Shown here piece after piece: positions 21,031-34,936 of a stretch of 64,000 bases of DNA. Position 1 is the first letter of the stretch; the number at the start of each line of letters is the position of its first letter. The position numbers and the translations under genes are program-made. This DNA comes from Aurantiacibacter spongiae (GTDB lineage: Bacteria; Pseudomonadota; Alphaproteobacteria; Sphingomonadales; Sphingomonadaceae), in assembly GCF_003815535.1 (NCBI RefSeq), contig NZ_RPFZ01000001.1, forward strand, positions 1,178,001 to 1,242,000, written 5' to 3'. Under the pieces are notes generated by a model. That model made no database searches, was not told the origin of the DNA, and saw nothing but the letters and a program-made list of their open reading frames with translations.

Positions 21031-22047
21031 ATGGCACGAACAGCTGCGCACGATACGCTGGCGCTGGAACCGGAGCGAGCCGGAGACGTGCCGGGCGCAT
21101 CATCCGGCCGGGGGATGGCGCACGCAATCGCGGCTGCGCCGGTGACGGTCGTCTACATCGCCGGCTACGGGCGCAGCGGAACGACCCTGCTCGACATCTC
21201 GCTGGGAGCGGCCGAGGACGTGGCATCCTGCGGCGAACTCGCCACGCTGGCGCGCCATGTCTGGCATGAAGGCGAATTCTGCGCCTGCGGGGAGACCGTG
21301 CGCGATTGCGCCCAGTGGCGCGACATCGTCGCGGACTGGATGCCCGGCGATAGCGATTCCGGACTGGCCGAACTTGCACGGCTTCAACGGCCCCGCGAAG
21401 CGATGATCTCGCCCGCGCGGTGGAGCGACCGGCACGTGCCCGGCCGCTCGAGCGAACGGTTCGCCCGCGTGACTGGCGACCTCTACCGCCGCATCGCGGC
21501 GCGGACCGGCAAATCGATCGTGATCGATTCTTCCAAACTGCCGGGGCGCGGCCTGGCGCTGGCGGACATGCCCGGCATCGCGCTCTACGTCGTGCACATG
21601 ACGCGCGACGCGCGCGGAGTGGTGTGGTCGCTGCGCAAGCCGCACAAGATCGACAAGGAAGCCGGTGTTCAGCGCGAATTGCGGCCCAAACCGCTGCTCT
21701 ACGCCGCCGCGCGCTGGGCGCTGGTCAACCGCGCCGCCGAAGCTCTTGCGCAAAAGGTCGGCCCGGACCGTTCGATGCGCGTGCGCTACGAGGATTTCGT
21801 CGCCGATCCGCAAGGTACGGTGCGCGCGATCCTGACGATGGTACGCGGACGCCCGTCCCGCGACCCGGTCCTCGATGCGCAGGGCCGCGTCTTCCCGGGG
21901 CATCAGATGGCCGGCAGCCGTCATCGCATGGCTCCGTCCATCCGCTTCCGCGCCGACGAAAGCTGGAAGCGCGACATGCCGGCGCGCGAACGTCGGATCG
22001 TCACCGCCGCCACCCGCCCGATGCTGGCGGCCTACGGATACATCTGA
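21031..22047 (+). CDS. Sulfotransferase family protein
   Basis: 338 residues; the ATG at 21031 follows GGGAG. The PAPS loop is GYGRSGTTLLDISLG, the 3'-phosphate block is VVHMTRDARGVVWSL and the Ser is in SIVIDSSKLPGRG, the pattern of the third bacterial sulfotransferase group in this locus. Its FCACGETVRDCAQWRDI segment contributes three cysteines near residue 90-105, a common feature of this subgroup, possibly a metal or disulfide site. It is the first gene of a plus-strand unit that continues with the lyase (5 bp downstream) and a glycosyltransferase. The probable target is the EPS or its lipid-linked precursor. Confidence 0.87.
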   Translation: MARTAAHDTLALEPERAGDVPGASSGRGMAHAIAAAPVTVVYIAGYGRSGTTLLDISLGAAEDVASCGELATLARHVWHEGEFCACGETVRDCAQWRDIVADWMPGDSDSGLAELARLQRPREAMISPARWSDRHVPGRSSERFARVTGDLYRRIAARTGKSIVIDSSKLPGRGLALADMPGIALYVVHMTRDARGVVWSLRKPHKIDKEAGVQRELRPKPLLYAAARWALVNRAAEALAQKVGPDRSMRVRYEDFVADPQGTVRAILTMVRGRPSRDPVLDAQGRVFPGHQMAGSRHRMAPSIRFRADESWKRDMPARERRIVTAATRPMLAAYGYI

Positions 22048-22052
22048 CATCC

Positions 22053-23459
22053 ATGCCGAGATCCGTATCCTTCTGCGTGTTTGCCGTTGCCGCCGGCCTC
22101 GCCCTCGCGGCGACCAATGCCCCCGGCTCCTGTTCGGGTTCGGGCTCCAACTCCGCCTCGGCCCCGATCGAGCAGCCGGGGCCGAGCCAGCCGGTCGTGC
22201 AAACGAATTCCGCCGCCTTCCCCGGCGCGACGGGCTACGGTGCCGCCAGCCGCGGGGGGCGCGACGGACGGATCATGTGGGTCACCACCACCGCCGACAA
22301 TACCAGCGGATCGTTGCGCGAATGCCTCGAAGCGCGGGGCGCGCGCGTCTGCATCTTCCGGACCGGCGGCATCTTCCGCTTTGTCGGCCGCCCTCCGGTG
22401 ATCCACGATCCCTACCTCACCATCGCCGGCGAAAGCGCTCCCGCCCCCGGGGTGACGCTGGCGCATTCGGGCGGCAGCGAGGCCCGCACCCCGCTCGTCG
22501 TGAAGGGGACGCACGACGTCGTGGTGCGCCACATTCGCGTGCGCAACGACATCGAAGGCGAGCATCGCCAGTCGGAAGACTCGTTCACTATCGAAGACAG
22601 CGACAACGTCATCCTCGATCACGTCAGCGGCAGCTGGGCACGCGACGAACTGGTCAACGGATATGGCGACAACGACCGTATCACCATCAGCAATTCGATC
22701 TTCGCGGAAGGCATTCCCCGGCACGACAAGTGCGCCCTGCTGGCGAGCGACCCCACCGGAGCGCAGCGGCTGAGCTTCATCGGCAATCTGTGCGCGCATA
22801 ACGGCGACCGCAATCCCGACGTCAACTTTCCGCCCATGTCCTGTGTCGAGATCATCAACAACACGTTCTACAACGCCCAGTCCGCCTTTGCGGAGATCTG
22901 GTCCAGCTTCGGTGGATCGCCGGTTTCGCTGGTCGGCAACAGCTTCATCGCCGGCCCGAATACCGGTCACAACGCCATCGGAATAATGCAGCACGAACTC
23001 AACGCGACGGGCGAGGCGCAAATCTACGAATGGGACAACGCCTTCGACGGAAGGTTCGTTCATATCGGTCCGGAAGTGGCGGCCGTGCGCGTGGCCGAAC
23101 CGCCCTGCCCCCTCACCGTCAATCCGCTCTCCCCCGCCGACGCCTATCGACGGGTGCTGGCAAGTTCCGGCGCCCTGCCGCGCGATGCGGTGGACGAACG
23201 GATCGTGACCGAAGTCCGCAACCGTTCCGGCAGCATCGTACAGGCCCCGGGGTCGATCCCCGCGCGCTTCCTCGCCGGAAGCACCGAACCTGCCTATCCC
23301 GACATCGACCGTGACGGCATGGATGACGGGTGGGAGGAGGCGAACGGCATCGATCGCTACGAACCCGACGCGTGGGAGGACGCCGATCGCGACGGGATCG
23401 CCAATCTGGAGGAATTCCTGGCCTATCGCCACACGCAGCTGATGAATGCGGCACGCTGA
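22053..23459 (+). CDS. Secreted pectate-lyase-like polysaccharide lyase (PL1 fold) with dockerin/EF-hand-like tail
   Basis: 468 residues with a signal peptide (SFCVFAVAAGLALAATNA) followed by a low-complexity Ser/Gly/Pro linker. The catalytic part starts FPGATGYGAASRGGRDG and runs through a right-handed beta-helix whose turns are visible as repeated NVILDHVSGSW, RITISNSIFAE, LSFIGNLCAHNG and CVEIINNTFYN. This matches PL1 lyases. The C-terminus has two calcium-loop-like repeats (DIDRDGMDDGWE and DADRDGIANLEEF). Within an EPS locus such a lyase usually trims or releases the polymer, as gellan/sphingan lyases do. The presence of uronic acid in this EPS is therefore plausible but not shown. Confidence 0.82.
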   Translation: MPRSVSFCVFAVAAGLALAATNAPGSCSGSGSNSASAPIEQPGPSQPVVQTNSAAFPGATGYGAASRGGRDGRIMWVTTTADNTSGSLRECLEARGARVCIFRTGGIFRFVGRPPVIHDPYLTIAGESAPAPGVTLAHSGGSEARTPLVVKGTHDVVVRHIRVRNDIEGEHRQSEDSFTIEDSDNVILDHVSGSWARDELVNGYGDNDRITISNSIFAEGIPRHDKCALLASDPTGAQRLSFIGNLCAHNGDRNPDVNFPPMSCVEIINNTFYNAQSAFAEIWSSFGGSPVSLVGNSFIAGPNTGHNAIGIMQHELNATGEAQIYEWDNAFDGRFVHIGPEVAAVRVAEPPCPLTVNPLSPADAYRRVLASSGALPRDAVDERIVTEVRNRSGSIVQAPGSIPARFLAGSTEPAYPDIDRDGMDDGWEEANGIDRYEPDAWEDADRDGIANLEEFLAYRHTQLMNAAR

Positions 23460-24667
23460 TGGCGAGCCGGGCGAGGCTTGCGGGCGAACGCCGCGCCCCT
23501 GCCAGCGATAGCGCCCGGCGGACCGGCGCCGCCGAGGGGGTGCCGGTGGTCTGCTACCCCTTCTCGGGAGCGGCGGTGGGTGGCAGCCACCTGTCGGTCA
23601 AGGGACTGATCGACAATCTCGGTGCCTCCAGCGTATCCCCGCTGATCGTCGTCGAAGCGGGCGACAACCCGATCGCGCGGCTGTTTCCCGGCCGGCGCGT
23701 CGTCGTCGACCCGGCCGCCGCCAGCGGGTTCGCGCCCGGACAGCGCGTGTCGCTGGCAGCCTATCTCGGCACGCTTCGCCATGCCCTGCGCCGCGCCCGG
23801 TTCCTCCGGCGGCACGGCGTCGCCATCGTGCATTGCAACGACGGTCGATCCTGCGCCGACTGGGGGCTGGCGGCCAAGCTGGCGGGGGCCAAGCTGCTGT
23901 GGCACCATCGCAGCGATCCGGGTTCTGTCGGGCTGCGCTTTGTCGCCCCCCTGCTGGCGGACCGCGTGGCGACCGTTTCGCGCTTCGCCCTGCCGCCGCC
24001 GGGCCGGTGGTCGGCGGCCGCGCGGGCACAGGTCGTTCACAGCCCCTTCGATACCTCCATCGCCGTCGATCGCTCGACCATGCGAGCGCGCCTTGCCGAA
24101 GAGATCGGTCTTGACGCAGGCGGCGCGATCCTCGGCTTCTTCGGTGCCTTCGTGGAGCGCAAGCGGCCCGAGATGTTCGTGCGCGCCCTCGCCGATCTGC
24201 GGGAACGAACCGGGCGCGATGTGCGCGGCGTCATGTTCGGAGAGGCGCGTTCTCCCCACATGGCCGAAAGGCTCGCGGCGACGATTGCCGAAACCGGGAT
24301 GGGGCAGGCGGTGCATCGTCCCGGCTATCGTGACGAGGGATGGCGCTGGATCGCCGCCTGCGACGTGCTGCTGGTGCCCGCGGTAGGCGAACCCTTCGGG
24401 CGAACGCTGGTCGAGGCCATGCTCGTGCAGACGCCCGTCGTCGCTGCCCGGTCGGGCGGCAATGTCGAGGCGCTCGAGCCGGATCTCGGGCTGCTGGTCG
24501 CGCCCGACGATCCGGCGGCCCTCGCGGGAGCCTGCGCGCATATACTGGATCGGCCCGGTGTCGCGCTGGAGATGGCTCGCCGGGCGAGGGCGTCCGCGCT
24601 CGAGCGGTTCGGCATCGACCGGCACCGGGAAGCGATCCTGACGATCTACCGCCAGCTTCTGGATTGA
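23459..24667 (+). CDS. GT4-type glycosyltransferase
   Basis: 402 residues beginning at the ATG that shares its A with the lyase stop codon (TGATG at 23457-23461). GT-B fold: an N-terminal acceptor domain with FSGAAVGGSHLSVKGLIDNL and IVHCNDGRSCADWGLAAKL, and a donor domain with LGFFGAFVERKRPEMFV and PAVGEPFGRTLVEAMLVQTP, the G-x-F-x-R-x-x-x-E-A block of GT4 enzymes. It is the last gene of the sulfotransferase-lyase-GT unit and closes the EPS locus before the Crp-type regulator. Donor and linkage are unknown. About 80 bp follow before the next gene. Confidence 0.87.
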   Translation: MASRARLAGERRAPASDSARRTGAAEGVPVVCYPFSGAAVGGSHLSVKGLIDNLGASSVSPLIVVEAGDNPIARLFPGRRVVVDPAAASGFAPGQRVSLAAYLGTLRHALRRARFLRRHGVAIVHCNDGRSCADWGLAAKLAGAKLLWHHRSDPGSVGLRFVAPLLADRVATVSRFALPPPGRWSAAARAQVVHSPFDTSIAVDRSTMRARLAEEIGLDAGGAILGFFGAFVERKRPEMFVRALADLRERTGRDVRGVMFGEARSPHMAERLAATIAETGMGQAVHRPGYRDEGWRWIAACDVLLVPAVGEPFGRTLVEAMLVQTPVVAARSGGNVEALEPDLGLLVAPDDPAALAGACAHILDRPGVALEMARRARASALERFGIDRHREAILTIYRQLLD

Positions 24668-24745: not shown

Positions 24746-25528
24746 ATGACGGACCGGACCTTCGCATCGCCAGACCTTGCCGGTGACAACCGGCGCAGCG
24801 CGCTCGAACGCAAGCTCGGCCATTACATGACGCTGACCTATTCGGAGCGAGACGCTCTGCGCTGGCTCGAGCGGCGCGAACGCCGTTACGCGGCGGGCAG
24901 CGTGGTTCTGCACGAGAACGAGGAAACGGATGCGCTCCATGTCGTCGCGTCGGGCTGGCTTCACGGCTCGACCCGCCTGCCTGACGAGGCGCGGCAGATC
25001 CTGCGCTTCTATTTCGTCGGCGACCTGACGACGACCTTCTCGATCGCCTGGGGGGTCAGCGCGGCCACGCTGACGGCGGTGAGCGATTGCACGCTCTACG
25101 AATTCCCGCGCGATGCGCTGTGGCGTATCTTTTCCGAACATCCCCGGCTCGCGGGCCTGTTCTACGGCGTGGCGGCGTCGGAACAGGTAGCGATGGCCGA
25201 CAGGCTCACCTCCGTTGGCCGGACCGACGCCATTACGCGGATCGGCAAGCTGCTGCTCGACATCCGTTCGCAATTGCGGGTTGTCGACGGGGAGAGCGGA
25301 TCGACCTTCGAACTGCCGCTCACGCTGCAGGATTTGGGCGATGCCGTCGGCCTGACCAAGACGCATGTCAGCCGAACGCTGAAGAAGCTGGAGGATCAGC
25401 GGCTTCTCGAGCGGGACGGGCGGATCATCCGTATCGTCGACGTGGCGGAACTGGCCAGCCGTGTCGGGTTCGAGGATCGCTACGGCCATATCGCCACCGA
25501 CTGGCTGCCGGACGCCGCCCCGCGATAG
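24746..25528 (+). CDS. Crp/Fnr-family transcriptional regulator
   Basis: 260 residues from the ATG at 24746. Residues 25-140 form the cyclic-nucleotide-binding-like jelly roll (AAGSVVLHENEETDALHVVASGW). Residues 193-217 form the winged helix-turn-helix (LTLQDLGDAVGLTKTHVSRTL). There is no N-terminal cysteine cluster, so it is not an oxygen-sensing FNR. The RE..SAR-type phosphate-binding cassette of cAMP-dependent CRP is also absent, so the ligand is unknown. The gene stands 168 bp in front of the nine-gene inositol/YcaO operon, on the same strand, and a repeat with a palindromic core lies between them. It is therefore the probable regulator of that operon. Confidence 0.85.
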   Translation: MTDRTFASPDLAGDNRRSALERKLGHYMTLTYSERDALRWLERRERRYAAGSVVLHENEETDALHVVASGWLHGSTRLPDEARQILRFYFVGDLTTTFSIAWGVSAATLTAVSDCTLYEFPRDALWRIFSEHPRLAGLFYGVAASEQVAMADRLTSVGRTDAITRIGKLLLDIRSQLRVVDGESGSTFELPLTLQDLGDAVGLTKTHVSRTLKKLEDQRLLERDGRIIRIVDVAELASRVGFEDRYGHIATDWLPDAAPR

Positions 25529-25539
25529 GCGCCTTACGG

Positions 25540-25582
25540 TGACATAGGTCATCGCACCGGACCGTGCCGGACACATAGGTCA
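25540..25582. promoter_or_regulatory. Candidate Crp-type operator pair before the inositol/YcaO operon
   Basis: ACATAGGTCA occurs twice, at 25542-25551 and 25573-25582, 31 bp apart (about three helical turns). The first copy completes the palindrome TGACATAGGTCA (25540-25551), a TGAC-N4-GTCA layout reminiscent of Crp/Fnr-family sites. Together with its position after the regulator gene and about 115-155 bp before the first operon gene, this suggests an operator. The remainder of 25529-25695 shows nothing else. Confidence 0.5.
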
Positions 25583-25695
25583 CCCCCGCCACCGGTTTTC
25601 TTCGGTTTTCGCCTCGCCGGGTGCAGCCCTCACGCGCCCGGCGCGTATCCCAGCCAGCGGTGCCAGACGGTGCCGCAATGCGAGGGAGAGGCACA

Positions 25696-26874
25696 ATGGC
25701 GGAGAAGGTTGGCGTGGCGATCGTGGGTCTGGGCGGCGCTGTCGCGACCACCGCGGTCGCGGGCATCGAGATGATCAAGGCCGGATCGAACGGTCTTTCG
25801 GGTCTGCCCCTGGCGGACCGCGACATCGCCGACATGGCGGCCTATCGCGATCTCGAATTCGGCGGATGGGATCTGGCCGATGCCGATCTCGGCACCTGCG
25901 CGACACGGCACGGCGTGCTTACCGAAGCCGATCTTCAGAATGGCGCGTCTGCCCTGCGCGACATGCGGGCATGGCCAGCCGTTGGCAGCAAGGCGCACTG
26001 CGCCAATATCGACGGCAACAACCGGATGGCGGACGGGCACCGCGCCGCGATCGGCCAGATCCAGTCCGATCTCGACCGGTTCCGGGAAGATCGCGGGCTG
26101 GACCGGATGGTGGTCGTCAACCTCGCCTCGACCGAGAAAACCCCCGACGCGAACGAATCCAGCCTGGCTTCGCTCGATGCGTTCGAGGAAGGTCTGGACG
26201 GCGACGATACGGCGATCAGCCCGGCCATGCTCTATGCCTACGCCGCGATCGACGCCGGCGTGCCCTACGCCAATTTCACGCCGTCCGTTGCTGCCGACCT
26301 GGCCCCGCTGGCGGAGATGGCGCGGACGCGCGGCGTGCCGGTGGCAGGCAAGGACGGCAAGACCGGCCAGACCTTCCTCAAGACGGTGATCGCACCCGCG
26401 CTCAGGGAACGCTCGCTGCATGTCGACGGATGGTTCTCGACCAACATCCTGGGCAATTCGGACGGGCTGGCGCTGGACGATCCCAAGTCGCTCGCGTCGA
26501 AGCTCGGCACCAAGGGCAGCGTGCTGGACGATATCCTCGGCTACAAGGTCGAGGATCACATCATCATGATCCACTATTACCGCCCGCGCGGGGACGACAA
26601 GGAGGCGTGGGACAATATCGACATGACCGGGTTCCTCGGTCAGAAGATGCAGCTCAAGCTGAACTTCCTGTGCAAGGATTCCATCCTCGCCGCTCCGCTG
26701 GCGATAGAGATCGCGCGGTGTCTCGATCTCGCCGCGCAGCGCGGTGACGGCGGCGTGCGAGAGGAACTGAGCCTGTTCTTCAAGCTGCCGCAGACGGCCG
26801 ACGGCGGAGCCCCCGTTCACGGCTTCGCGCAGCAACAGGCGATGCTCGACGAATGGCTCGGCGAACCGGCCTGA
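25696..26874 (+). CDS. Inositol-3-phosphate synthase family protein
   Basis: 392 residues; the ATG at 25696 follows GAGGGAGAGG. The NAD motif VGLGGAVATT is at 10-19 and ANFTPS at 192-197. The substrate-binding region shows GKDGKTGQT at 218-226, NILGNSDG at 250-257 and CKDSILAAP at 326-334. These correspond to the conserved blocks of myo-inositol-1-phosphate synthases, which convert glucose 6-phosphate to inositol phosphate through an NAD-dependent aldol cyclisation. It is shorter than the eukaryotic enzyme (over 500) and close to archaeal/actinobacterial forms. As first gene of the operon it supplies a cyclitol phosphate, the presumed scaffold for the other enzymes. Confidence 0.9.
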   Translation: MAEKVGVAIVGLGGAVATTAVAGIEMIKAGSNGLSGLPLADRDIADMAAYRDLEFGGWDLADADLGTCATRHGVLTEADLQNGASALRDMRAWPAVGSKAHCANIDGNNRMADGHRAAIGQIQSDLDRFREDRGLDRMVVVNLASTEKTPDANESSLASLDAFEEGLDGDDTAISPAMLYAYAAIDAGVPYANFTPSVAADLAPLAEMARTRGVPVAGKDGKTGQTFLKTVIAPALRERSLHVDGWFSTNILGNSDGLALDDPKSLASKLGTKGSVLDDILGYKVEDHIIMIHYYRPRGDDKEAWDNIDMTGFLGQKMQLKLNFLCKDSILAAPLAIEIARCLDLAAQRGDGGVREELSLFFKLPQTADGGAPVHGFAQQQAMLDEWLGEPA

Positions 26875-27767
26875 TGACGCTGTCGCCAGCCCTGCTGCCG
26901 CTGCTGCGCGAACTCGGCGATCTGAAGCGGATACGGTCCGCGGGGCGAGACGGAACGGTCGCGACACGCCTGTTCGAAATGGCGTGGAGCGCGTGGCTGG
27001 CCGGGGAAGACCGCGACACGGTGGCGATGCGAGCGATGGCGCAGGCGCTGGCGGCTTGCCGTCTGGGCGATCTCGACCACGCCAAGCTTGGCGAACTGGG
27101 CATGTCCGGGGATGATCGCCGCACGGCCCTCGAACGCGCCGTGGACGAGATTGCCGCACCCTTGCCCGACGATCATGCCGCCGCGCTCAAGACGTATCTC
27201 GATGCGCCGCTGTCGCCCCCCGGGCCGCTCCCCGATGCCATCGCCGCGCTGCGTCACCAGCCGCGCGCGGGGGTGACGGGGCCGGGCCGACCGCGCATCA
27301 TGCTGCAACCCGAGGAAAACCACGCGGAGCACAGCTTCCTCGTCGCGCTCTATGCCAGTCTGCTGGCGCCGTTTTACGGTGCGCCCCCCGCCCGATCCTT
27401 CTGGCACGGCATGGTCCACCACCTCCATTCCGCCGCCATGCCGGACGCGGGCTATACCGGGGAAGTGCTGCTGGGCGACCGTCTCGGCAGCGTGATCGAC
27501 CGTGCGCGCGAGCTGGCGCTGGCACAGCTTCCCGACAAGCCGGCGGCCGTGTCGCGCGAGCATCTGCTGGAGATTGCCGACGACACCACCCCCGCCGCCC
27601 GCGCCTTTCATGCCGGCGATGTCATCGACCGGGTCGTGGAGATCGAGCAGCATCTGAAGCGCGGTGCCGTCACGATGGACGTGGTGCTCGGTGATTACGG
27701 CCTCGTGCACGATGGCCCGGTAAAGCCATTCCACGACCGGGTGCTGGCCGAGACAGGGCTGCCGTGA
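26874..27767 (+). CDS. HD-fold protein with altered metal site
   Basis: 297 residues; the ATG shares its A with the stop of the synthase gene (TGATG), so translation is coupled. The C-terminal half looks like an HD-domain phosphohydrolase of the YfbR type. It has NHAEHSFLVALYASLLAPF (His153 as first ligand), then MVHHLHSA, where the defining His-Asp is His182-His183, and GDVIDRVVEIEQH with Asp249. The N-terminal 140 residues are helical and unfamiliar. HD folds include phosphatases and the diiron oxygenase MIOX, so dephosphorylation or oxidation of the cyclitol are both conceivable. The Asp-to-His change argues against a standard HD phosphatase. The function is not established. Confidence 0.65.
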   Translation: MTLSPALLPLLRELGDLKRIRSAGRDGTVATRLFEMAWSAWLAGEDRDTVAMRAMAQALAACRLGDLDHAKLGELGMSGDDRRTALERAVDEIAAPLPDDHAAALKTYLDAPLSPPGPLPDAIAALRHQPRAGVTGPGRPRIMLQPEENHAEHSFLVALYASLLAPFYGAPPARSFWHGMVHHLHSAAMPDAGYTGEVLLGDRLGSVIDRARELALAQLPDKPAAVSREHLLEIADDTTPAARAFHAGDVIDRVVEIEQHLKRGAVTMDVVLGDYGLVHDGPVKPFHDRVLAETGLP

Positions 27768-28864
27768 TCTGGCATTCGCCCGTTACCGGCCGCCCGCTCG
27801 CCGCCGACACGCCCCATTCGTTGAGCGATGGGCGAGGCGAGCGCTGGCCGCTGGTGGAGGGCATCCCCTATCTGCGCTCCGGGAGCGAGGCGCTGGTCGA
27901 ACTGGCGCTCGGCCTGCTCGATTCGGGCGATATGGACGCCGCCCTCGTCGCCTTGCTGAGCGACCAGGATGAATGGTGGAGCGGGACCGGCACCGATCCG
28001 GGGGAGCTGCGCGAACTGGTCGCGCGCCGCGACGAACTGACCTTGCGCGAAGCGATGCGCCTGCTGCGCTTCGGGCCCGTCGCCGACTATTTCGCGCATC
28101 GCTGGTCCGATCCGACCTTTCTCGCCGGTCTCGCCCTGCTCGAGGCGCATCGCGGCGGGGCGCGAACCGCCTTCGAACTGGCCGGTGGGATCGGCCACTA
28201 CTCTCGCGATCTGGCGCGGCACGCCGTTCGCTGCGTCAGCGGCGACGTGGTTTTCGCGAAGTGCTGGCTGGCGAAGAACTGGATCGCGCCCGAAGCGCAA
28301 TACGTCGTGTTCGACGCGCAGGATCGCTGGCCGATCGGCGATGCGCGCTTCGATCTCGTGCATTGCCAGGATGCGTTCTACTTCCTTCCCGAACAAGGCC
28401 GCGTGGCGCAGCGCATGCGCGAGGCTCTTGCCGATGGCGGCACCCTCCTCGTCGGGCATCTGCACAATGCCGATTATGCCGCCGGGGCGATGGGACCGGC
28501 ACGAACGGCAGGGGAATGGCGCGCCATCTTCCCCGAAGCCCTCGTTTACGACGAGCGCGAGTTGCGGGCCGCCCTGCTCGCCGCCCGGGCGCCGGACCCC
28601 GTAGCCTTGCGCGAGGACGAGAGCGTGGAAGCGTGGTCGCTGGCCGAGCGGGCAACCGCCCCTGGCGCCGTCGAAGCGGGCCTCGCCCTGCCCCCGCCAT
28701 CCGCCCGCCTGCGGCCCAATCCGCTGATCGGGAGCGACGGGCCGCAATGGCCTTCGCAGCGATACGCAAGCGAATACGGCCCCGCAGCGACCTGGACCGA
28801 TCCCGCCGCGACGAGCGATCCCGAACGCGATCGCCGGCTGGTCGACCTGCCGGAAAGGTGGTGA
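27764..28864 (+). CDS. Class I SAM-dependent methyltransferase-like protein
   Basis: 366 residues; the GTG at 27764 overlaps the previous stop (GTGA). The N-terminus (MIWHSPVTGRPLAADT...WPLVEGIPYLR) resembles a Trm112-like zinc-ribbon segment often fused to methyltransferases, but without the cysteines. The central part has a Rossmann pattern: FELAGGIGHYSRDLA as the SAM-binding glycine loop, then FDAQDRWPIGDARFDLVHCQD and a LADGGTLLVGHLHN strand. The last 100 residues are unfamiliar and end in DLPERW. The acceptor is presumably an intermediate of the operon's product. Methyl transfer is inferred from fold only. Confidence 0.75.
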   Translation: MIWHSPVTGRPLAADTPHSLSDGRGERWPLVEGIPYLRSGSEALVELALGLLDSGDMDAALVALLSDQDEWWSGTGTDPGELRELVARRDELTLREAMRLLRFGPVADYFAHRWSDPTFLAGLALLEAHRGGARTAFELAGGIGHYSRDLARHAVRCVSGDVVFAKCWLAKNWIAPEAQYVVFDAQDRWPIGDARFDLVHCQDAFYFLPEQGRVAQRMREALADGGTLLVGHLHNADYAAGAMGPARTAGEWRAIFPEALVYDERELRAALLAARAPDPVALREDESVEAWSLAERATAPGAVEAGLALPPPSARLRPNPLIGSDGPQWPSQRYASEYGPAATWTDPAATSDPERDRRLVDLPERW

Positions 28865-28866
28865 CG

Positions 28867-29859
28867 ATGCGGTGGGGAATCGCCGGTTACGGATGGGTGG
28901 CGCGCGACTACATGGCGCCGGCCATTGCCGCCGCCGGCGGGACCGTCGCGGCGGTCTGCGATCCCTCCCGCGAAGCGCGTGCCCTGGCGGAGGAACGCGG
29001 CGCGCAAGGGTTCGCACGGCTCGAGGACATGCTGGATGGCTGTGCGCTCGACGCGCTTTACGTCGCGACGCCCAACCACCTGCATGCCGGGACGATAGAG
29101 ACGGCGGCGGCGGCGGGCCTGCCCATCTTGTGCGAGAAGCCGCTGGCCGAGGACATCGCCGGCGTGGAGCGTATCGCGGCGGTCGCCGATTCCGGTAGCA
29201 CGGCGATCGCCACCGCTTTCGACCAGCGCCATCATCCCGCGCACGAGGCTGTTCGCCAACGTATCCGCGCCGGCGATCTCGGAACCGTCACCGCGATCCG
29301 CATCGTCTATTGCTGCTGGGTCGATCCCGAATGGTCGCGGGGCACGGGCGAAAACTGGCGCGCGCAGCCCCGGTGCGCGGGCGGCGGAGCGGTGCTCGAT
29401 CTCGCGCCGCACGGGCTGGACCTCGCGGAATACCTGCTCGGGGAACCGGTGGGCGATCTTTCCGTGACCCTCCAGCGCCGGATCCACGATTACCCGGTCG
29501 AGGACGGGGGCATGGTGATCGGGCGCACCGCATCGCACGTGCTGTTTTCCAGCCACGTCTCCTACAACTGGCCCGAGGAACTGCCGCGCCGCCGGCTGGA
29601 GATCGCCGGGACCGGAGGGCTGATCGTCGCTACCGACACGATGGGCCAGGACGCGGGCGGGCACGTGTCGCTGATAGACGCGGCGGGCGGGGGCCGGCAG
29701 GTGATCGCCTTCGACAGCGCGACCACCCCCTTCGTGCGGCAGGCGCTGGCTTTCGCACATTGGTGCGAACGGCCGTCAGGCACATTCTCGATCGCGCGCG
29801 ACATCGCCGCCGCGCGCCGCTTTTTCGCGGCCTACCGAAAGGCGCAACCATGCCCCTGA
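28867..29859 (+). CDS. Gfo/Idh/MocA-family NAD(P)-dependent oxidoreductase
   Basis: 330 residues; the ATG at 28867 (a GTG at 28861 is an alternative) stands 2 bp after the methyltransferase stop. The N-terminal Rossmann motif is IAGYGWVARDYM and the catalytic EKP is at 90-92 (LCEKPLAED). The C-terminal sheet domain carries GGGAVLDLAPHGLDLAEYL with the family's catalytic-side His. Enzymes of this family oxidise or reduce sugars and cyclitols (inositol dehydrogenase IolG is a member). Next to an inositol-phosphate synthase and a TIM-barrel isomerase, oxidation of the cyclitol ring to an inosose is the most natural guess, though a nucleotide sugar is possible. Confidence 0.87.
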   Translation: MRWGIAGYGWVARDYMAPAIAAAGGTVAAVCDPSREARALAEERGAQGFARLEDMLDGCALDALYVATPNHLHAGTIETAAAAGLPILCEKPLAEDIAGVERIAAVADSGSTAIATAFDQRHHPAHEAVRQRIRAGDLGTVTAIRIVYCCWVDPEWSRGTGENWRAQPRCAGGGAVLDLAPHGLDLAEYLLGEPVGDLSVTLQRRIHDYPVEDGGMVIGRTASHVLFSSHVSYNWPEELPRRRLEIAGTGGLIVATDTMGQDAGGHVSLIDAAGGGRQVIAFDSATTPFVRQALAFAHWCERPSGTFSIARDIAAARRFFAAYRKAQPCP

Positions 29860-30665
29860 ACCATTTCGCCTGCGCCAATTGCGGCTTCTGGCAATTGCAT
29901 TTCGATCCGCCGGAGTGCCCCGTCTGCACCGACGTTCGCAACGATCTGCCGGAGGATGGCTGGCGTTTCCTGCCCGAACGCGAAGTCGCCGCCAGTCACG
30001 ACGGGTCGGCACGGGAGGTAGCGGAAGGGTTGTGGGCCTTCACCACGACGCCCGCCCTCGGGCTGGGCGGAACCGGCTGGCTGCTGGTGCGCGAAGGCGG
30101 CAACGTCGCCTTCGAGGCCGCCCCCTATTACTCGCCGCCCATGCTGGACACGCTCGCGCGGCTCGGCGGCATTGCCGCACTGGCGGCCAGTCATCCCCAC
30201 GGCTACGGCGCGTTGTTCCAGTTGCAGCGCGAATTCGATCCCCCTGTCGTCGCGATCCACAAGGACGATCTGGCCTACACCAAGGCGTTTCGCGTGACCG
30301 CTCCCTACGATGAGACCCTGGAGCTGGCGTCCGGCTGCACGCTCTACCGGGTCGGCGGGCATTACGCGGGACAGGCGGCGCTGCACGATGCCGGCGGCGG
30401 GCGCCTGTTCTGCGGCGACATGTTCAAGGTCGATCAGGACGAGGCGGGGCGGTCCACCCATGTCTCCAGCCACAAGGCGTTTCACAGAAACATTCCGCTG
30501 ACCCACGGCGAGTTGCGGCACTATCGCGATGTCATCGCGCCACTCTCGTTCGAGGCGCTGCTCACCCCCTTCGAATACGCGCCCGAGATCGGACGCGAAA
30601 CCGCGCTCGCGGTGCTGGACGAGGCGCTGGCCCGTCCGCCCCAGGTCAGGAGATACGCCCTGTGA
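29850..30665 (+). CDS. Zinc-ribbon plus metallo-beta-lactamase-fold protein
   Basis: 271 residues; the ATG at 29850 overlaps the oxidoreductase gene by 10 bp. Residues 8-26 carry a zinc ribbon or rubredoxin-like knuckle pair (C-ANC at 8/11 and CPVC at 23/26). The rest looks like a metallo-beta-lactamase fold. ASHPHGYG at 113-120 sits where HxHxDH is expected, GGHYAGQ at 169-175 supplies a further His, and CGDMFK with Asp190 the bridging acid. The first motif keeps two His but lacks the DH, so the metal site is degenerate or of another type. A hydrolase, or a redox partner using the ribbon, are both possible. The role is inferred only from the operon. Confidence 0.7.
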   Translation: MPLNHFACANCGFWQLHFDPPECPVCTDVRNDLPEDGWRFLPEREVAASHDGSAREVAEGLWAFTTTPALGLGGTGWLLVREGGNVAFEAAPYYSPPMLDTLARLGGIAALAASHPHGYGALFQLQREFDPPVVAIHKDDLAYTKAFRVTAPYDETLELASGCTLYRVGGHYAGQAALHDAGGGRLFCGDMFKVDQDEAGRSTHVSSHKAFHRNIPLTHGELRHYRDVIAPLSFEALLTPFEYAPEIGRETALAVLDEALARPPQVRRYAL

Positions 30666-32173
30666 GAACCGGCAGCGCCCATAAGGACCTTCCCGCCGGC
30701 CTGCCCGACGCGGCGCGACTCTATCTCGATGCCTTCCCGGCGGGCGAGATCGTCGCCTTCCCCATCGACCCCGTCGACCGGCTGGGCATCCCTGTATGGA
30801 TCGTCGCGCTGTTTCCCGACGACCAGACACCGCTCGGCGGCGTCATGCCCTACGGCGTGGGCTACGGCGCCGACGAAGGGCAGGCGATCCTGGGCGCGAT
30901 GGGCGAGATTGCGGAAATGGCCTTCCCGGCCCTTTCGCTGTCACGGCGCAGCAAGGTGCGCGCCAGCTATGCCGACCTGATCGCCAGCGAAGGCGAGCAC
31001 GCGGCAGCAGACCCGTTGACGCTGTGCCTGCCGGCCGGTTCTCCGGTCGCGCGCGACACGGTGCTGGAATGGGTCGAGGCGGTGCGCCACGCGGACGGTT
31101 CCCGCGTGCTCGTGCCGATAGACCTCGCCGCCTACAATTCCGCCGAGCTGTCGCCCGGATACGCGCCTTTCACGACGATCATCTCGAACGGCATGGGCGC
31201 GGGACCGGATATCGACTGGGCGGTCGGCCACGGACTTTGCGAGATCCTGCAACGAGACGGCAACGGCCTGCTGTTCCGCGCGCTCGACCGGGGCGTGGCG
31301 CTGGGCCTGCCACACGATCCGCCGGCCGGCATCGCGGCCCTGCTGGCGCGCTACGAACAGGCCGGCATCCGCCCGATACCCAAATTCGCGACCGACGAGT
31401 TCGGCATCGCCAACATCTATTGCGTGGGCGAGGATACGCACGTCGATCCCGCCGAACCGATCATGGTGTCGAGCTGCGGCGAAGCGGCGCATCCCGATGC
31501 CCTCGCCGCGCTGGAGAAGGCGCTGACCGAATATGCCGCCAGCCGATCGCGCAAGGCCTACGCGCATGGCGACGAGGCGCGGACCCGCGCTCTCAGTCCG
31601 TCGGGCTATGTCGAGCGTTTCCTCGCGCAGAGCGGCGGCGCGGCGAAAAGCAGTGACCGGCGCGCGCTCGATGCCATGATCGACTGGCAAGCGCGCGCAG
31701 CCGGCGAGATCCGCGAGTGGCTCGCGCCGAACATGCTCGCCGAGACGACCCGCAAGCCGTTCGCCGACCTGCCGCACACGCCCTGCCCCGGCCCGCGCGA
31801 CAGGGGCCGCATTGCGCTCGAACGCGTGATCGCGGCGGGGTTCGACCCCCTCTATGTCGACATGGCGCCCGAAGGTTGCCCGGTCAGCACGGTCAAGCTG
31901 ATCGTGCCGGGCATGGAGGTCGAGACGATGAGCTATTACCGCATAGGCGAGCGCGGCGTGGCCAAGCTGATGGCGATGGACAGCGAGCTTGTCGGCTTCG
32001 TCCCCGGCCCGGGAAAGGAACCGGTGCGCCTCACGCCCGAGGCGGTCGAACGGCTGGGCGGGCAACCCTATTTCGATACCGCGCTGGCGGAACGGATCGT
32101 CGGCCCGCTCTACCCGCTCTATCGCGAACCGGAGGCGCACCACGCCGCCGCCGCGCGAAACGCAGCGACATGA
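30662..32173 (+). CDS. YcaO-domain protein
   Basis: 503 residues; the GTG at 30662 overlaps the previous stop (GTGA). The YcaO ATP/Mg fold is recognisable in GYGADEGQAILGAMGEIAEM (67-86), ISNGMGAGPDIDWAVGHG (174-191), CEILQRD (193-199) with the metal-binding Glu, and GEAAHPDALAALEKALTEYA. YcaO enzymes phosphorylate a backbone amide oxygen and introduce azolines, thioamides or amidines. The C-terminus ends EAHHAAAARNAAT and lacks the PxPxP tail of azoline-forming YcaO proteins. There is no TfuA, no RRE or E1-like partner and no visible precursor peptide gene, so a non-ribosomal substrate within this pathway is likely. The reaction is unknown. Confidence 0.85.
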   Translation: MRTGSAHKDLPAGLPDAARLYLDAFPAGEIVAFPIDPVDRLGIPVWIVALFPDDQTPLGGVMPYGVGYGADEGQAILGAMGEIAEMAFPALSLSRRSKVRASYADLIASEGEHAAADPLTLCLPAGSPVARDTVLEWVEAVRHADGSRVLVPIDLAAYNSAELSPGYAPFTTIISNGMGAGPDIDWAVGHGLCEILQRDGNGLLFRALDRGVALGLPHDPPAGIAALLARYEQAGIRPIPKFATDEFGIANIYCVGEDTHVDPAEPIMVSSCGEAAHPDALAALEKALTEYAASRSRKAYAHGDEARTRALSPSGYVERFLAQSGGAAKSSDRRALDAMIDWQARAAGEIREWLAPNMLAETTRKPFADLPHTPCPGPRDRGRIALERVIAAGFDPLYVDMAPEGCPVSTVKLIVPGMEVETMSYYRIGERGVAKLMAMDSELVGFVPGPGKEPVRLTPEAVERLGGQPYFDTALAERIVGPLYPLYREPEAHHAAAARNAAT

Positions 32174-33003
32174 CACTGCGCTACGCCTACAACACCAATG
32201 GTGCGGCCAATCACCGGCTGGACGACGCGCTGCGCCTGATCGCCGACAGCGGCTATGCCGGGGCCGCGATCACGCTCGACCATCATCACTGCGACCCGCT
32301 GGCCCCCGGCTGGCGTGCCGAAGCGGAGCGCGTTGCCCGCCTGCTAAGCGAACTCGGGCTCGGTGCCGTCGTCGAGACAGGAGCCCGCTTCCTGCTCGAT
32401 CCGCGGTCCAAGCACGAACCGACGCTGATCTCGCCCGAACCCGAAGGGCGCGAGAGGCGCATCGGTTTTCTGACCCGCGCGCTCGACATCGCGGCGATCT
32501 GGCGGGCCGATGCGGTCAGCTTCTGGGCCGGCGTTCCTCGTCCCGGAACCGGGCGGGAGGATGCGATGGAATGGCTGCACGAGGGCCTGGCGCGCGTGCT
32601 CGACCACGCCGAGGCGATCGGGGTCGATGCCGCGTTCGAACCGGAACCGGGAATGCTGATCGAAACGTGCGGAGAATGGGCAGACCTGCGCGCCCGCCAC
32701 CCGCGCCTCAAGCTGGCGCTCGACACCGGACATTGCCTCGTGAGCGGCGACATCGACCCCGCCGACGCCGTACGCCGGCACGCCGACCATCTCGGCACCG
32801 TTGCCATCGAGGACATGGCGACGGGCGTTCACGTCCATCTGCCTTTCGGGGAGGGCGACATGGACATCCCCGCCGTGCTCGCGGCGCTGTCGGACATCGG
32901 TTTCGAGCGCCTCGTTTCGGTAGAACTTTCGCGCGAAAGCCCGCGCGCGCACGAGGCTATTCCCGAAAGCATCGCCTATCTGAAGGACCACGAGCCGGCA
33001 TGA
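32170..33003 (+). CDS. AP-endonuclease-2-type TIM-barrel sugar isomerase/epimerase
   Basis: 277 residues; ATGA overlap with the YcaO gene. TIM-barrel protein of the xylose-isomerase-like superfamily. The strands begin YAYNTNGAANHRLDDALRLI, and metal ligands are seen as FEPEPG (Glu), LALDTGHC (Asp, His) and VSVELSRES (Glu), with a VAIEDMATGVHVHLPFGEGD loop that carries further His and Asp. IolE, IolI, hydroxypyruvate isomerase and tagatose epimerases belong here. In an operon with inositol-phosphate synthase and a Gfo/Idh/MocA enzyme, isomerisation or dehydration of an inosose is a reasonable expectation, but the substrate is not shown by the sequence. Confidence 0.83.
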   Translation: MTLRYAYNTNGAANHRLDDALRLIADSGYAGAAITLDHHHCDPLAPGWRAEAERVARLLSELGLGAVVETGARFLLDPRSKHEPTLISPEPEGRERRIGFLTRALDIAAIWRADAVSFWAGVPRPGTGREDAMEWLHEGLARVLDHAEAIGVDAAFEPEPGMLIETCGEWADLRARHPRLKLALDTGHCLVSGDIDPADAVRRHADHLGTVAIEDMATGVHVHLPFGEGDMDIPAVLAALSDIGFERLVSVELSRESPRAHEAIPESIAYLKDHEPA

Positions 33004-34223
33004 GAACCTGCTTTGTCAGCCGCCGCTTCTTTCCCGCCATCAGCGGCATGTCCATCTACGCCATCAACCTGCTGCGCCAGCTGGTCGCACGCGGTCACGA
33101 CGTCACCATGATAAGCCAGTATCGCGGAGACGACTTCGGCAAGGGCGTGTACGGGGGCGGCCCGCCGCCCGGTGTCGCGGGCGTGAAGGTCATCGGACTC
33201 GAGCAGCTTGGAGAGCAGCTGGCGAACGATACCGCCGCCGACTTCGAACGCGACATCGACACCATCGTGGCGACGATAGAACGCGAGCACGCCGCCGCCC
33301 CCTTCGATCTGCTTCACGCCCAATACGGCTACCCGACCGGCTGGGCGGCGCTGCTTGCCGGACAGCGGCTCGGCCTGCCGGTCGTGGTGTCGATCCAGGG
33401 CGGCGACGGCCACTGGGTCGGTTCGTGTTGCGAGACGCACCGGGCGGCGATGGTCCGCGTTCTGGATCATGCGGATGCCGTGCTGATCGGCGGAGAGAGC
33501 TTCGCCCGCGAAGTGCATGACCGGCTCGGCACGCCAATGGATCGCTTCACCCTCATTCCCGGCGCGGTCGATACGAAGCGCTTTACGCCCGGCACGCTGG
33601 GCGACGGGAACACCGTTCGCATCCTCTACCACGGCCGCGTCGACCGCCGGAAGGGCGTCCTCGACTTCATCGCCGCCTGCGACCGTCTGACGGGGGATTG
33701 GCGCGCGACCATTTCGGGGATCGGACCCGATCTCGACGCGGCGAAGGCGCTGACCGCGAAAAGAGATCTGGGCGAGCGTATCGTCTTCACCGGTTATGCC
33801 GATTACGCCGACGTGCCGCAGATCTACCGCGAGCACCACATCTTCGCTTCGCCCACCTATGCGGAAGGGTTTTCCAACACCATCCTCGAAGCGATGGCGA
33901 GCGGACTGGCGATCGTCTCGTGCCACGCGGTCGGCGTTTCCGATTGCCTGCGCGACGCGGAAAACGGCTTGCTGATCGAACCGGGCGACGTGGAAGCGCA
34001 GGCGGCCTGCCTGCAACGCCTGATCGACGACGAGGGCGAGCGCCACCGGCTTGCCGACGCCGCGCTTACCGAATGCCGCGCGGTCTACAGCTGGGACGTG
34101 GTCGGCGGCATGATTGCCGGGATCTACGGGCAGCTTCGCGGCAGCGGCGGGCCGACATCGTTCGATCCCGTGCTGCCGGCAGACCCGGACTGCCGTTTCC
34201 GCGCGGAGCCGCATCTGCTGTGA
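33000..34223 (+). CDS. GT4-type glycosyltransferase of the inositol/YcaO operon
   Basis: 407 residues; ATGA overlap with the isomerase gene. The N-terminus FVSRRFFPAISGMSIYAINL carries the G-M acceptor pattern of GT4 enzymes. The donor domain has ILYHGRVDRRKGVLDFI and SPTYAEGFSNTILEAMASGL (E-G-F...E). The fold class is that of MshA, which joins GlcNAc to inositol phosphate in mycothiol synthesis. The adjacent deacetylase and the inositol-phosphate synthase make a glycosyl-inositol product attractive, but overall likeness to MshA cannot be measured here and the gene could equally serve a different acceptor. Confidence 0.85.
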   Translation: MRTCFVSRRFFPAISGMSIYAINLLRQLVARGHDVTMISQYRGDDFGKGVYGGGPPPGVAGVKVIGLEQLGEQLANDTAADFERDIDTIVATIEREHAAAPFDLLHAQYGYPTGWAALLAGQRLGLPVVVSIQGGDGHWVGSCCETHRAAMVRVLDHADAVLIGGESFAREVHDRLGTPMDRFTLIPGAVDTKRFTPGTLGDGNTVRILYHGRVDRRKGVLDFIAACDRLTGDWRATISGIGPDLDAAKALTAKRDLGERIVFTGYADYADVPQIYREHHIFASPTYAEGFSNTILEAMASGLAIVSCHAVGVSDCLRDAENGLLIEPGDVEAQAACLQRLIDDEGERHRLADAALTECRAVYSWDVVGGMIAGIYGQLRGSGGPTSFDPVLPADPDCRFRAEPHLL

Positions 34224-34936
34224 GCCGGGTGCTGGCGATCTCCCCGCATCTCGACGACGCGGTCTTTTCCGCCGGCGGCACCCTGGCGGCCCATGCGGAT
34301 GCGGGCGACGTCGTCACTGTCGTCACCTGCTTCACCGGCAGCGTCGCAAATCCCGCGGGCTTCGCGCTCGCCTGCCAGCTCGACAAGGGACTGGACAAGG
34401 ATGCTGACTACATGGCGCTGCGCCGGGCGGAGGATGTGGTGGCATGTGCGGCGATCGGCGCCCGCTGCGTCCATCTGCCGCTGCTCGAGGCGCCGCATCG
34501 CGGTTACGAGAACGCCGCCGCGCTGTTCGGTGCGCTAAAGGCCAGCGACGATGCGATCGAAACCGTCGCCGAGGCGCTCCGCCCGGTCATCGCGCGTCGC
34601 AGGCCGGATATCATCTACGGTCCCTGCGGTGTCGGCGGTCACGTGGATCACCTGGCGGTGCGCGAAGCCCTGGCACGAATTGCCCCCGGCGCGGTGCTGT
34701 GGGAGGACTTTCCCTATGCGATGCGAGAGGCGGCAGCACCGCGAGGGATCGAGCGTGCCTGTCTTTCGGACGAGATCCTGGAACGCAAGACTGCGGCCGT
34801 CCTCGCCTACCGCAGCCAGATCGGCTTCCAGTTCGGCTCGTCGGAAGACGCGCGCCGGACGCTCGCCCGGTGGCGTTACGAAGGATTTGCCAAGCCGGCG
34901 GTCACGGCATCTTTCCCATCCAGCCATGCATGGTGA
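34220..34936 (+). CDS. PIG-L family deacetylase of the inositol/YcaO operon
   Basis: 238 residues; the GTG at 34220 overlaps the glycosyltransferase stop (GTGA). The zinc motif is ISPHLDDAVFSAGG (residues 7-20, with His-Leu-Asp-Asp in place of the more common His-Pro-Asp-Asp) and the third ligand lies in GVGGHVDHLAV. The PIG-L family includes MshB, which deacetylates GlcNAc-inositol. Here it ends the nine-gene operon, and its last 35 bp overlap the convergent esterase gene. Expected role: removal of an acetyl group from an amino-sugar moiety of the pathway product. It is not closely alike to the EPS-locus deacetylase at 13038. Confidence 0.85.
   Translation: MSRVLAISPHLDDAVFSAGGTLAAHADAGDVVTVVTCFTGSVANPAGFALACQLDKGLDKDADYMALRRAEDVVACAAIGARCVHLPLLEAPHRGYENAAALFGALKASDDAIETVAEALRPVIARRRPDIIYGPCGVGGHVDHLAVREALARIAPGAVLWEDFPYAMREAAAPRGIERACLSDEILERKTAAVLAYRSQIGFQFGSSEDARRTLARWRYEGFAKPAVTASFPSSHAW

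Follow-up and report, generated by a model that had tools for sequence, protein, structure and literature searches.

A conserved nine-gene operon joining inositol-phosphate synthase with a YcaO enzyme in Aurantiacibacter spongiae and distantly related bacteria

The locus and its genes

To our knowledge, YcaO enzymes are known solely as modifiers of peptides and proteins. Here we describe an operon of the alphaproteobacterium Aurantiacibacter spongiae in which a gene for such an enzyme lies among genes that point to cyclitol and amino-sugar metabolism. The stretch of DNA analyzed in full, referred to below as the window, comprises 64,000 nucleotides (C1:1178001-1242000) of a 2.86-Mb genome that contains a single YcaO gene. 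Judged by this gene, the closest named relatives are Erythrobacter and Porphyrobacter (81-83% identity). At 25696-34936 on the forward strand of the window, nine genes run end to end, each overlapping or touching the next. A preliminary description had assigned them to nine families, tightly coupled and placed behind a Crp/Fnr gene, and Pfam, the structural model of the fifth protein and the gene junctions all agree with it. Pfam supports eight of the nine families, the exception being the zinc-ribbon protein of metallo-β-lactamase (MBL) fold. The features are as follows.

24746..25528, + strand: Crp/Fnr-type regulator (HTH_Crp_2 5e-15, cNMP_binding 6e-14)
25543..25580 (approximate), no strand assigned: putative operator pair, TGACATAGGTCA and then ACATAGGTCA ~31 bases on
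25696..26874, + strand: Ino1, myo-inositol-phosphate synthase, 392 aa (NAD_binding_5 2e-55, Inos-1-P_synth 1e-32)
26874..27767, + strand: HD-fold protein, putative cyclitol-phosphate phosphatase, 297 aa (HD_3 7e-5, YfbR/HDDC2/OxsA fold)
27764..28864, + strand: S-adenosylmethionine-dependent methyltransferase, 366 aa (Methyltransf_11 8e-9)
28861 (GTG) or 28867 (ATG)..29859, + strand: Gfo/Idh/MocA oxidoreductase, hereafter Gfo (GFO_IDH_MocA 4e-19)
29850..30665, + strand: zinc-ribbon and MBL-fold protein, probable YcaO partner, 271 aa (alignment, model and fold match)
30662..32173, + strand: YcaO ATP-dependent enzyme, 503 aa (Pfam YcaO 3e-48)
32170..33003, + strand: xylose-isomerase-like TIM barrel (isomerase, epimerase or dehydratase), 277 aa (AP_endonuc_2 5e-38)
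33000..34223, + strand: family 4 glycosyltransferase (GT4), 407 aa (Glycos_transf_1 6e-31)
34220..34936, + strand: PIG-L type N-deacetylase, 238 aa (PIG-L 7e-19)

The junctions read TGATG between Ino1 and the HD gene, GTGA at HD/methyltransferase, MBL/YcaO and GT4/PIG-L, and ATGA at YcaO/TIM and TIM/GT4, and Gfo and MBL overlap by 10 bases. The methyltransferase/Gfo junction is GTGA only if Gfo begins at the GTG at 28861, the alternative start being the ATG at 28867. A gap of ~170 bases separates the Crp/Fnr gene from Ino1. The G+C content of the operon (0.66-0.70) matches that of its surroundings, and composition therefore offers no hint that the genes arrived recently.

Conservation of the gene set

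GTDB species genomes, scanned with YcaO as the query, yielded 43 loci, to which plasmid and sampled-genome loci were later added, and at all 43 relatives of other operon genes adjoin YcaO. With three incomplete or frameshifted contigs (L012, L020 and L034) left out of the gene-order count, the order Ino1-HD-methyltransferase-Gfo-MBL-YcaO-TIM-GT4-PIG-L is exact in 36 of 36 scored sphingomonad loci, in all six Streptomyces, in both Roseomonas-like alphaproteobacteria and in five of six other actinobacteria; the sixth actinobacterial contig stops inside the operon and lacks the methyltransferase. Identities between the proteins of the window and those of Streptomyces fall to 39-57%, so gene order has been retained across great divergence, and the nine proteins show correlated pairwise identities from lineage to lineage (r = 0.51-0.90). 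The preliminary description had named scattered homologues as the contrary case; the same order in dozens of distant genomes instead speaks against a chance or scattered neighborhood.

It had also framed the product as a metabolite of an alphaproteobacterium, which proved too narrow. The operon occurs in at least three phyla, being found in Alphaproteobacteria, Actinomycetota and Bacteroidota, with a variant in Verrucomicrobiota. Within these groups it is patchy: YcaO matches with E < 1e-3 occur in nine of 298 genomes of the order (seven of them strong, and with congeners that give no match), in three of 385 genomes of the class, in nine of 296 Actinomycetota (two without the other eight genes) and in one of 195 Verrucomicrobiota, which is the very genome on which that sample was centred. 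In Methylobacterium, Roseomonas and Hymenobacter, the operon is met with on replicons classed as plasmids. A distribution that is patchy and in part plasmid-borne is most naturally explained by horizontal spread.

Comparison of the flanks gave no gene common to different clades, neither a transporter nor a resistance gene nor, apart from the Crp/Fnr gene of sphingomonads, a dedicated regulator, and so no hidden further members of the cluster; the nine genes are therefore taken as the unit. A short open reading frame conserved between clades, such as might encode a precursor peptide, was likewise not found in the operon and 2 kb around it.

The exceptions to the canonical order are informative. 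In all three Methylobacterium-type loci (L058, L061 and L076), no MBL gene lies between Gfo and YcaO, so that this protein is not needed in cis. The one such genome examined as a whole, the Methylobacterium-like G580, carries a standalone zinc-ribbon/MBL relative outside the operon (L089:7818-8858, equivalent to G580:C1:4639841-4640647), near housekeeping genes, by their reading ffh, rpsP and rimM. The Hymenobacter operon, on a plasmid (L060), has no methyltransferase, which is therefore dispensable; as deposited, its sequence has both Gfo and GT4 interrupted, just as the YcaO gene of one sphingomonad (L086, genome G272) is split by a frameshift, and either decay or sequencing error could account for these breaks.

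The verrucomicrobial variant, a single metagenome contig (L037), differs most. Just upstream of its HD gene, at the position of Ino1, is an AroB-like cyclase of type PRK06203 (546 bits, cut-off 333). From this exchange of one cyclase type for another, it seems that what the pathway requires is a carbocycle made from a sugar phosphate, and the first product of consequence is probably such a ring. On the same contig, MBL and YcaO are fused into one protein of 790 residues (L037:9044-11413), which suggests that the two act together, and PIG-L is immediately followed, at the contig end, by another YcaO of this subfamily (L037:13464-15005). The contig ends there, so the missing TIM barrel and methyltransferase prove nothing.

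Two related actinobacterial loci, L083 and L085, have a YcaO of the same subfamily, with its ExxQRDGN signature kept, but none of the remaining eight genes of the operon. At each locus the gene after YcaO encodes a NodB-type polysaccharide deacetylase, and in L085 YcaO lies amid sugar ABC transporter and glycosidase genes. That a deacetylase of unrelated fold again accompanies YcaO hints that the enzyme works on amino sugars, and among the independent hints of such a role we regard this one as the best.

Features of the encoded proteins

The proposal that Ino1 makes a cyclitol phosphate is borne out by its matches. It scores 113 bits against Inos-1-P_synth and 189 bits against NAD_binding_5, its best PDB match is the inositol-3-phosphate synthase 7nwr (240 bits), 1u1i scores 192 bits, and the catalytic lysine segment KDGKTG at residue 219 aligns with both. 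By these measures, it is predicted to be a genuine, ordinary myo-inositol-phosphate synthase (MIPS).

The HD protein, whose HD_3 match is barely above the cut-off, has a model of high confidence (predicted local distance difference test (pLDDT) 92.6). Residues 117-272 superpose on HDDC2 with Z 11.2 (root mean square deviation (rmsd) 4.0, 149 residues aligned) and on YfbR with Z 10.1 (rmsd 2.5, 135 aligned), the values for the YfbR/HDDC2/OxsA fold overall being Z 9-11 and rmsd 2.4-4.0. A MIOX/PhnZ-like oxygenase is less likely, since these folds outrank PhnZ and TmpB, which are weak in Foldseek. The residues H153, H182, H183, D191 and D249 are invariant in the alignment, the doublet being HH and not HD, and because His replaces Asp there, a phosphatase role is a guess. 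Among 148 further genomes drawn from the order, not one had the protein.

Gfo carries the EKP and DxxPHxxD motifs. The preliminary description likened it to IolG, which survives as one option: the score against the iolG model is 98 bits, under the cut-off, and the nearest solved structure is 1,5-anhydrofructose reductase (3e-31). The TIM barrel is far under the cut-offs of the families it resembles, with 32 bits for IolO and 24 bits for IolE (cut-off 290), and it has a plausible metal-ligand pattern formed by FEPEPG at 156, DTGH at 185, HVHL at 221 and VEL at 251.

GT4 has an Ex7E motif at 289, and the PIG-L protein has PHLDD and GHVDH. Both had been compared with enzymes of mycothiol synthesis, and the kinship holds at the level of family but not of the individual enzyme. 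GT4 scores 75 bits for BshA and 63.8 for MshA (TIGR03449, cut-off 462.5), and PIG-L 30 bits for BshB1 and 28.5 for MshB (TIGR03445), the MshB cut-off of 224.35 being far above. With scores so far under the cut-offs, the two are best classed, on their sequences, as relatives within the MshA/BshA and MshB/BshB families and not as those equivalogs.

Searched by sequence, the zinc-ribbon/MBL protein matches no Pfam family. Its AlphaFold model (pLDDT 92) has the MBL fold and matches 2p97 with VIA Z 20.0, rmsd 2.6 and 195 residues aligned. There is an N-terminal knuckle, C8xxC11...C23xxC26, and the alignment shows that H115xH117, H171 and D190 are retained with Y119-G120 in place of the usual DH, for which reason the protein probably binds one metal.

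The assignment of YcaO is secure at the level of Pfam (165 bits, cut-off 25.7). Its best PDB match is MJ1094 of Methanocaldococcus jannaschii (5e-28), with LynD at 7e-10. The signature ExxQRDGN is invariant in the family, as are E82, E85, N176, E194, R198 and E290. In a profile alignment, the second Glu of ExxER(D), present in MJ1094 and LynD, is an invariant Gln197 in all aligned members, and the C-terminal tail is without PxPxP. Against NCBIfam, the thioamide model scores about the same as the SagD model TIGR03604 (85.1 bits, cut-off 219.25), both well under cut-off.

Regulator and neighboring genes

A Crp/Fnr gene stands beside the operon in 26 of 36 sphingomonad loci and is absent at the Streptomyces, Methylobacterium and Hymenobacter loci; it is a sphingomonad addition, a lineage-specific companion outside the conserved unit. 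In the gap between it and Ino1, the palindromic TGACATAGGTCA and a second half-site likely form a putative operator for the regulator. A TGACAT-type site is found in 18 of the 26 gaps and a second half-palindrome in 17, as against 0.01 and 0.07 in shuffles, a comparison that is not independent because the pattern was picked after the gaps had been viewed.

Directly upstream, at 21031-24667 of the window, are a sulfotransferase-family gene, a gene for a secreted beta-helix protein (pectate-lyase-like, by eye) and a further GT4, possibly the end of an exopolysaccharide cluster. In several lineages DNA-repair genes adjoin the operon, different ones each time and not conserved: two spore photoproduct lyase genes in Roseomonas (L059:14828-16949), uracil-DNA glycosylase-superfamily genes in a Methylobacterium-type locus (L061:13271-13972) and at L077:2270-2935, and Fpg/Nei-type glycosylases, recognized by eye only, directly after the operon in the actinobacterial loci L081 and L082. 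Chance may account for their presence, or they may reflect some connection with light or oxidative stress.

A proposed pathway

The nine genes probably constitute a pathway dedicated to cyclitol and amino-sugar chemistry, in which the substrate of YcaO is not a peptide. We regard the type of pathway as well supported; what YcaO does and what is made are inferred. The product is most likely an intracellular glucosaminyl-cyclitol, formed by a pathway that is self-contained and horizontally mobile; that it remains in the cell is suggested by the lack of a transporter in the unit.

In outline, Ino1 would convert glucose-6-phosphate to inositol phosphate, from which the HD protein would remove the phosphate. 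GT4 would attach N-acetylglucosamine to the inositol, and PIG-L would free the 2-amine as a nucleophile. Gfo and the TIM barrel would provide the electrophile, by oxidizing a hydroxyl to a ketone and then isomerizing or dehydrating it to an enol or vinylogous acid, and the methyltransferase would decorate the ring in most lineages. YcaO, with the zinc-ribbon MBL protein, would then activate the carbonyl oxygen with ATP for attack by the freed amine, giving a cyclic imine, amidine or enaminone. YcaO is cast as the user of this amine because it is the sole ATP-dependent activating enzyme of the set and no cysteine ligase is present. That this exact step, attack of the amine on a YcaO-activated carbonyl, takes place is a possibility we hold to be rather unlikely in its particulars. 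Where YcaO is known to form amidines, it spends ATP to activate the oxygen of a carbonyl, and the amine then attacks that carbonyl. A parallel is the macroamidine of bottromycin, where YcaO also joins an amine to an activated carbonyl; here the reaction is proposed on a sugar and not on a peptide.

Several points weigh against this scheme. Its support is gene content and order, with product, substrate and activity all deduced from them, and the loci were gathered through YcaO, so the co-occurrence count is biased and covers YcaO-bearing loci. In this YcaO, Gln replaces the Glu that its relatives carry in ExxERD, which leaves its use of ATP or metal unproven. The HH doublet of the HD protein, together with the absence of the catalytic Glu of YfbR, makes phosphatase activity uncertain. 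Gfo, being nearest to 1,5-anhydrofructose reductase, could run in the reducing direction, and the operons of Methylobacterium type are without the MBL gene.

The preliminary description had YcaO acting on a non-ribosomal amide. A non-peptide substrate is indeed favored, because no conserved precursor peptide was found, while the amide is unproven.

Alternative readings and known systems

If the amide is retained, the product may be a thioamide or other sulfur-bearing glucosaminyl-inositol, made by amide activation and addition of sulfide, with the MBL/zinc-ribbon protein handling sulfur and the product acting as a mycothiol-like antioxidant. We consider this improbable. The nearest solved YcaO is of the archaeal thioamide-forming type (MJ1094), and GT4 and PIG-L belong to the right families, but the thioamide and SagD models score nearly equally and far under cut-off, the operon has neither a sulfur-transfer gene nor an amide-forming ligase, and TfuA (PF07812) was not found in the genome (G000), although the control, M. 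acetivorans, was positive, so that TfuA-dependent thioamidation was rejected. MJ1094, the archaeal enzyme for McrA thioglycine (TIGR03266), shares with the operon protein the ATP core and the C-terminal VxVxxPxxEV...R segment; the operon protein, in contrast, has the Gln substitution, is ~120 residues longer and has cyclitol/amino-sugar neighbors but no TfuA.

Mycothiol synthesis itself (Ino1-MshA-phosphatase-MshB-MshC-MshD) resembles the operon in its synthase, GT4, phosphatase role and PIG-L leading to glucosaminyl-inositol. It differs in that the operon GT4 and PIG-L fall so far short of MshA and MshB and that the methyltransferase, Gfo, MBL, YcaO and TIM proteins have no counterpart in it. 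No MshC over cut-off was found in the genome (best 193.7 bits against 485.1), and the mycothiol pathway was rejected; in 14 control genomes all but one scored under the MshC cut-off, as expected of cysteinyl-tRNA synthetase. Streptomyces carriers of the operon should already make mycothiol.

Also of low probability is a mycosporine-like ultraviolet (UV) screen, in which inositol oxidized and dehydrated by Gfo and the IolE-like TIM barrel would give an O-methylated trihydroxycyclohexanedione, and YcaO, in place of the ATP-grasp enzyme MysC, would form an enaminone with glucosamine as the amine. The enzyme set suits this order of chemistry, many carriers live in light or air, and repair genes adjoin the operon in several lineages, but those genes differ and are not conserved, the TIM barrel scores poorly against IolE, and Streptomyces and one tick isolate carry the operon too. 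UVA-absorbing compounds are described from phyllosphere Methylobacterium (Yoshida 2017, cited in PMC12573535), but could not be tied to the operon. The mycosporine-like amino acid pathway shares a carbocycle from sugar phosphate, a methyltransferase and ATP-dependent carbonyl activation; unlike it, the operon has Ino1 for the cyclase like dehydroquinate synthase (L037 excepted), YcaO for ATP-grasp, and in addition GT4, PIG-L, Gfo, TIM, HD and MBL proteins.

Least probable is a ribosomally synthesized and post-translationally modified peptide (RiPP), missed by us and glycosylated by the sugar genes: peptides or proteins are the targets of all well-studied YcaO clusters, and a 2021 study of actinobacterial YcaO proteins saw no evidence for non-RiPP roles in Actinobacteria (PMC8442711), but no short reading frame common to clades lies near the operon (although a peptide could be encoded far from it), the PxPxP tail is missing, the SagD score is low, and what the ten proteins match in Pfam and NCBIfam includes neither a TfuA nor an E1-like/Ocin-ThiF or RiPP recognition element partner, dedicated recognition-element models not having been run, so this reading was rejected. 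Genome-mining surveys class YcaO genes of this sort with azoline peptide clusters, as one of Acetobacteraceae does for a locus of Roseomonas mucosa (PMC8776678) whose gene may or may not belong to this family.

The Ebo cluster (eboA-F) also has a TIM barrel, and the L037 cyclase is of the PRK06203 AroB-like type, which we take to be associated with EboD. Unlike that cluster, the operon has no UbiA prenyltransferase, EboA, EboB or EboF and, in the window, no EboD; no operon protein matches the EboA-F set, the AroB-like cyclase occurring in L037 only. The preliminary description knew of no published pathway with this gene set, and we also found none in the open-access literature, though one may have appeared behind a subscription or in a recent preprint; it is a cluster family for which no described counterpart was found.

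Implications

Carriers of the operon include Sphingomonas leaf isolates, Methylobacterium, Hymenobacter from air, Erythrobacter and bacteria of sunlit water. They also include Streptomyces and the tick isolate, for which reason a photoprotective or antioxidant role of the product, as suggested by ecology, is no more than a lead. For the dedicated glucosaminyl-cyclitol pathway that we favor, we put forward, tentatively and as somewhat short of an even chance, a broader idea: that the ExxQRDGN subfamily of YcaO acts on carbohydrates and, with an N-deacetylase and ATP, fuses the amine of an amino sugar to an oxidized cyclitol; the protective metabolites so formed would be intracellular, constitute a new class and be shared by remote lineages through horizontal transfer. 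If true, this would be the first YcaO chemistry in sugar or cyclitol metabolism, and would bring to light a kind of natural product that genome mining designed for RiPPs would misinterpret. The unit that may encode it is small, complete and mobile, and is found in the readily cultured genera Sphingomonas, Methylobacterium and Streptomyces.

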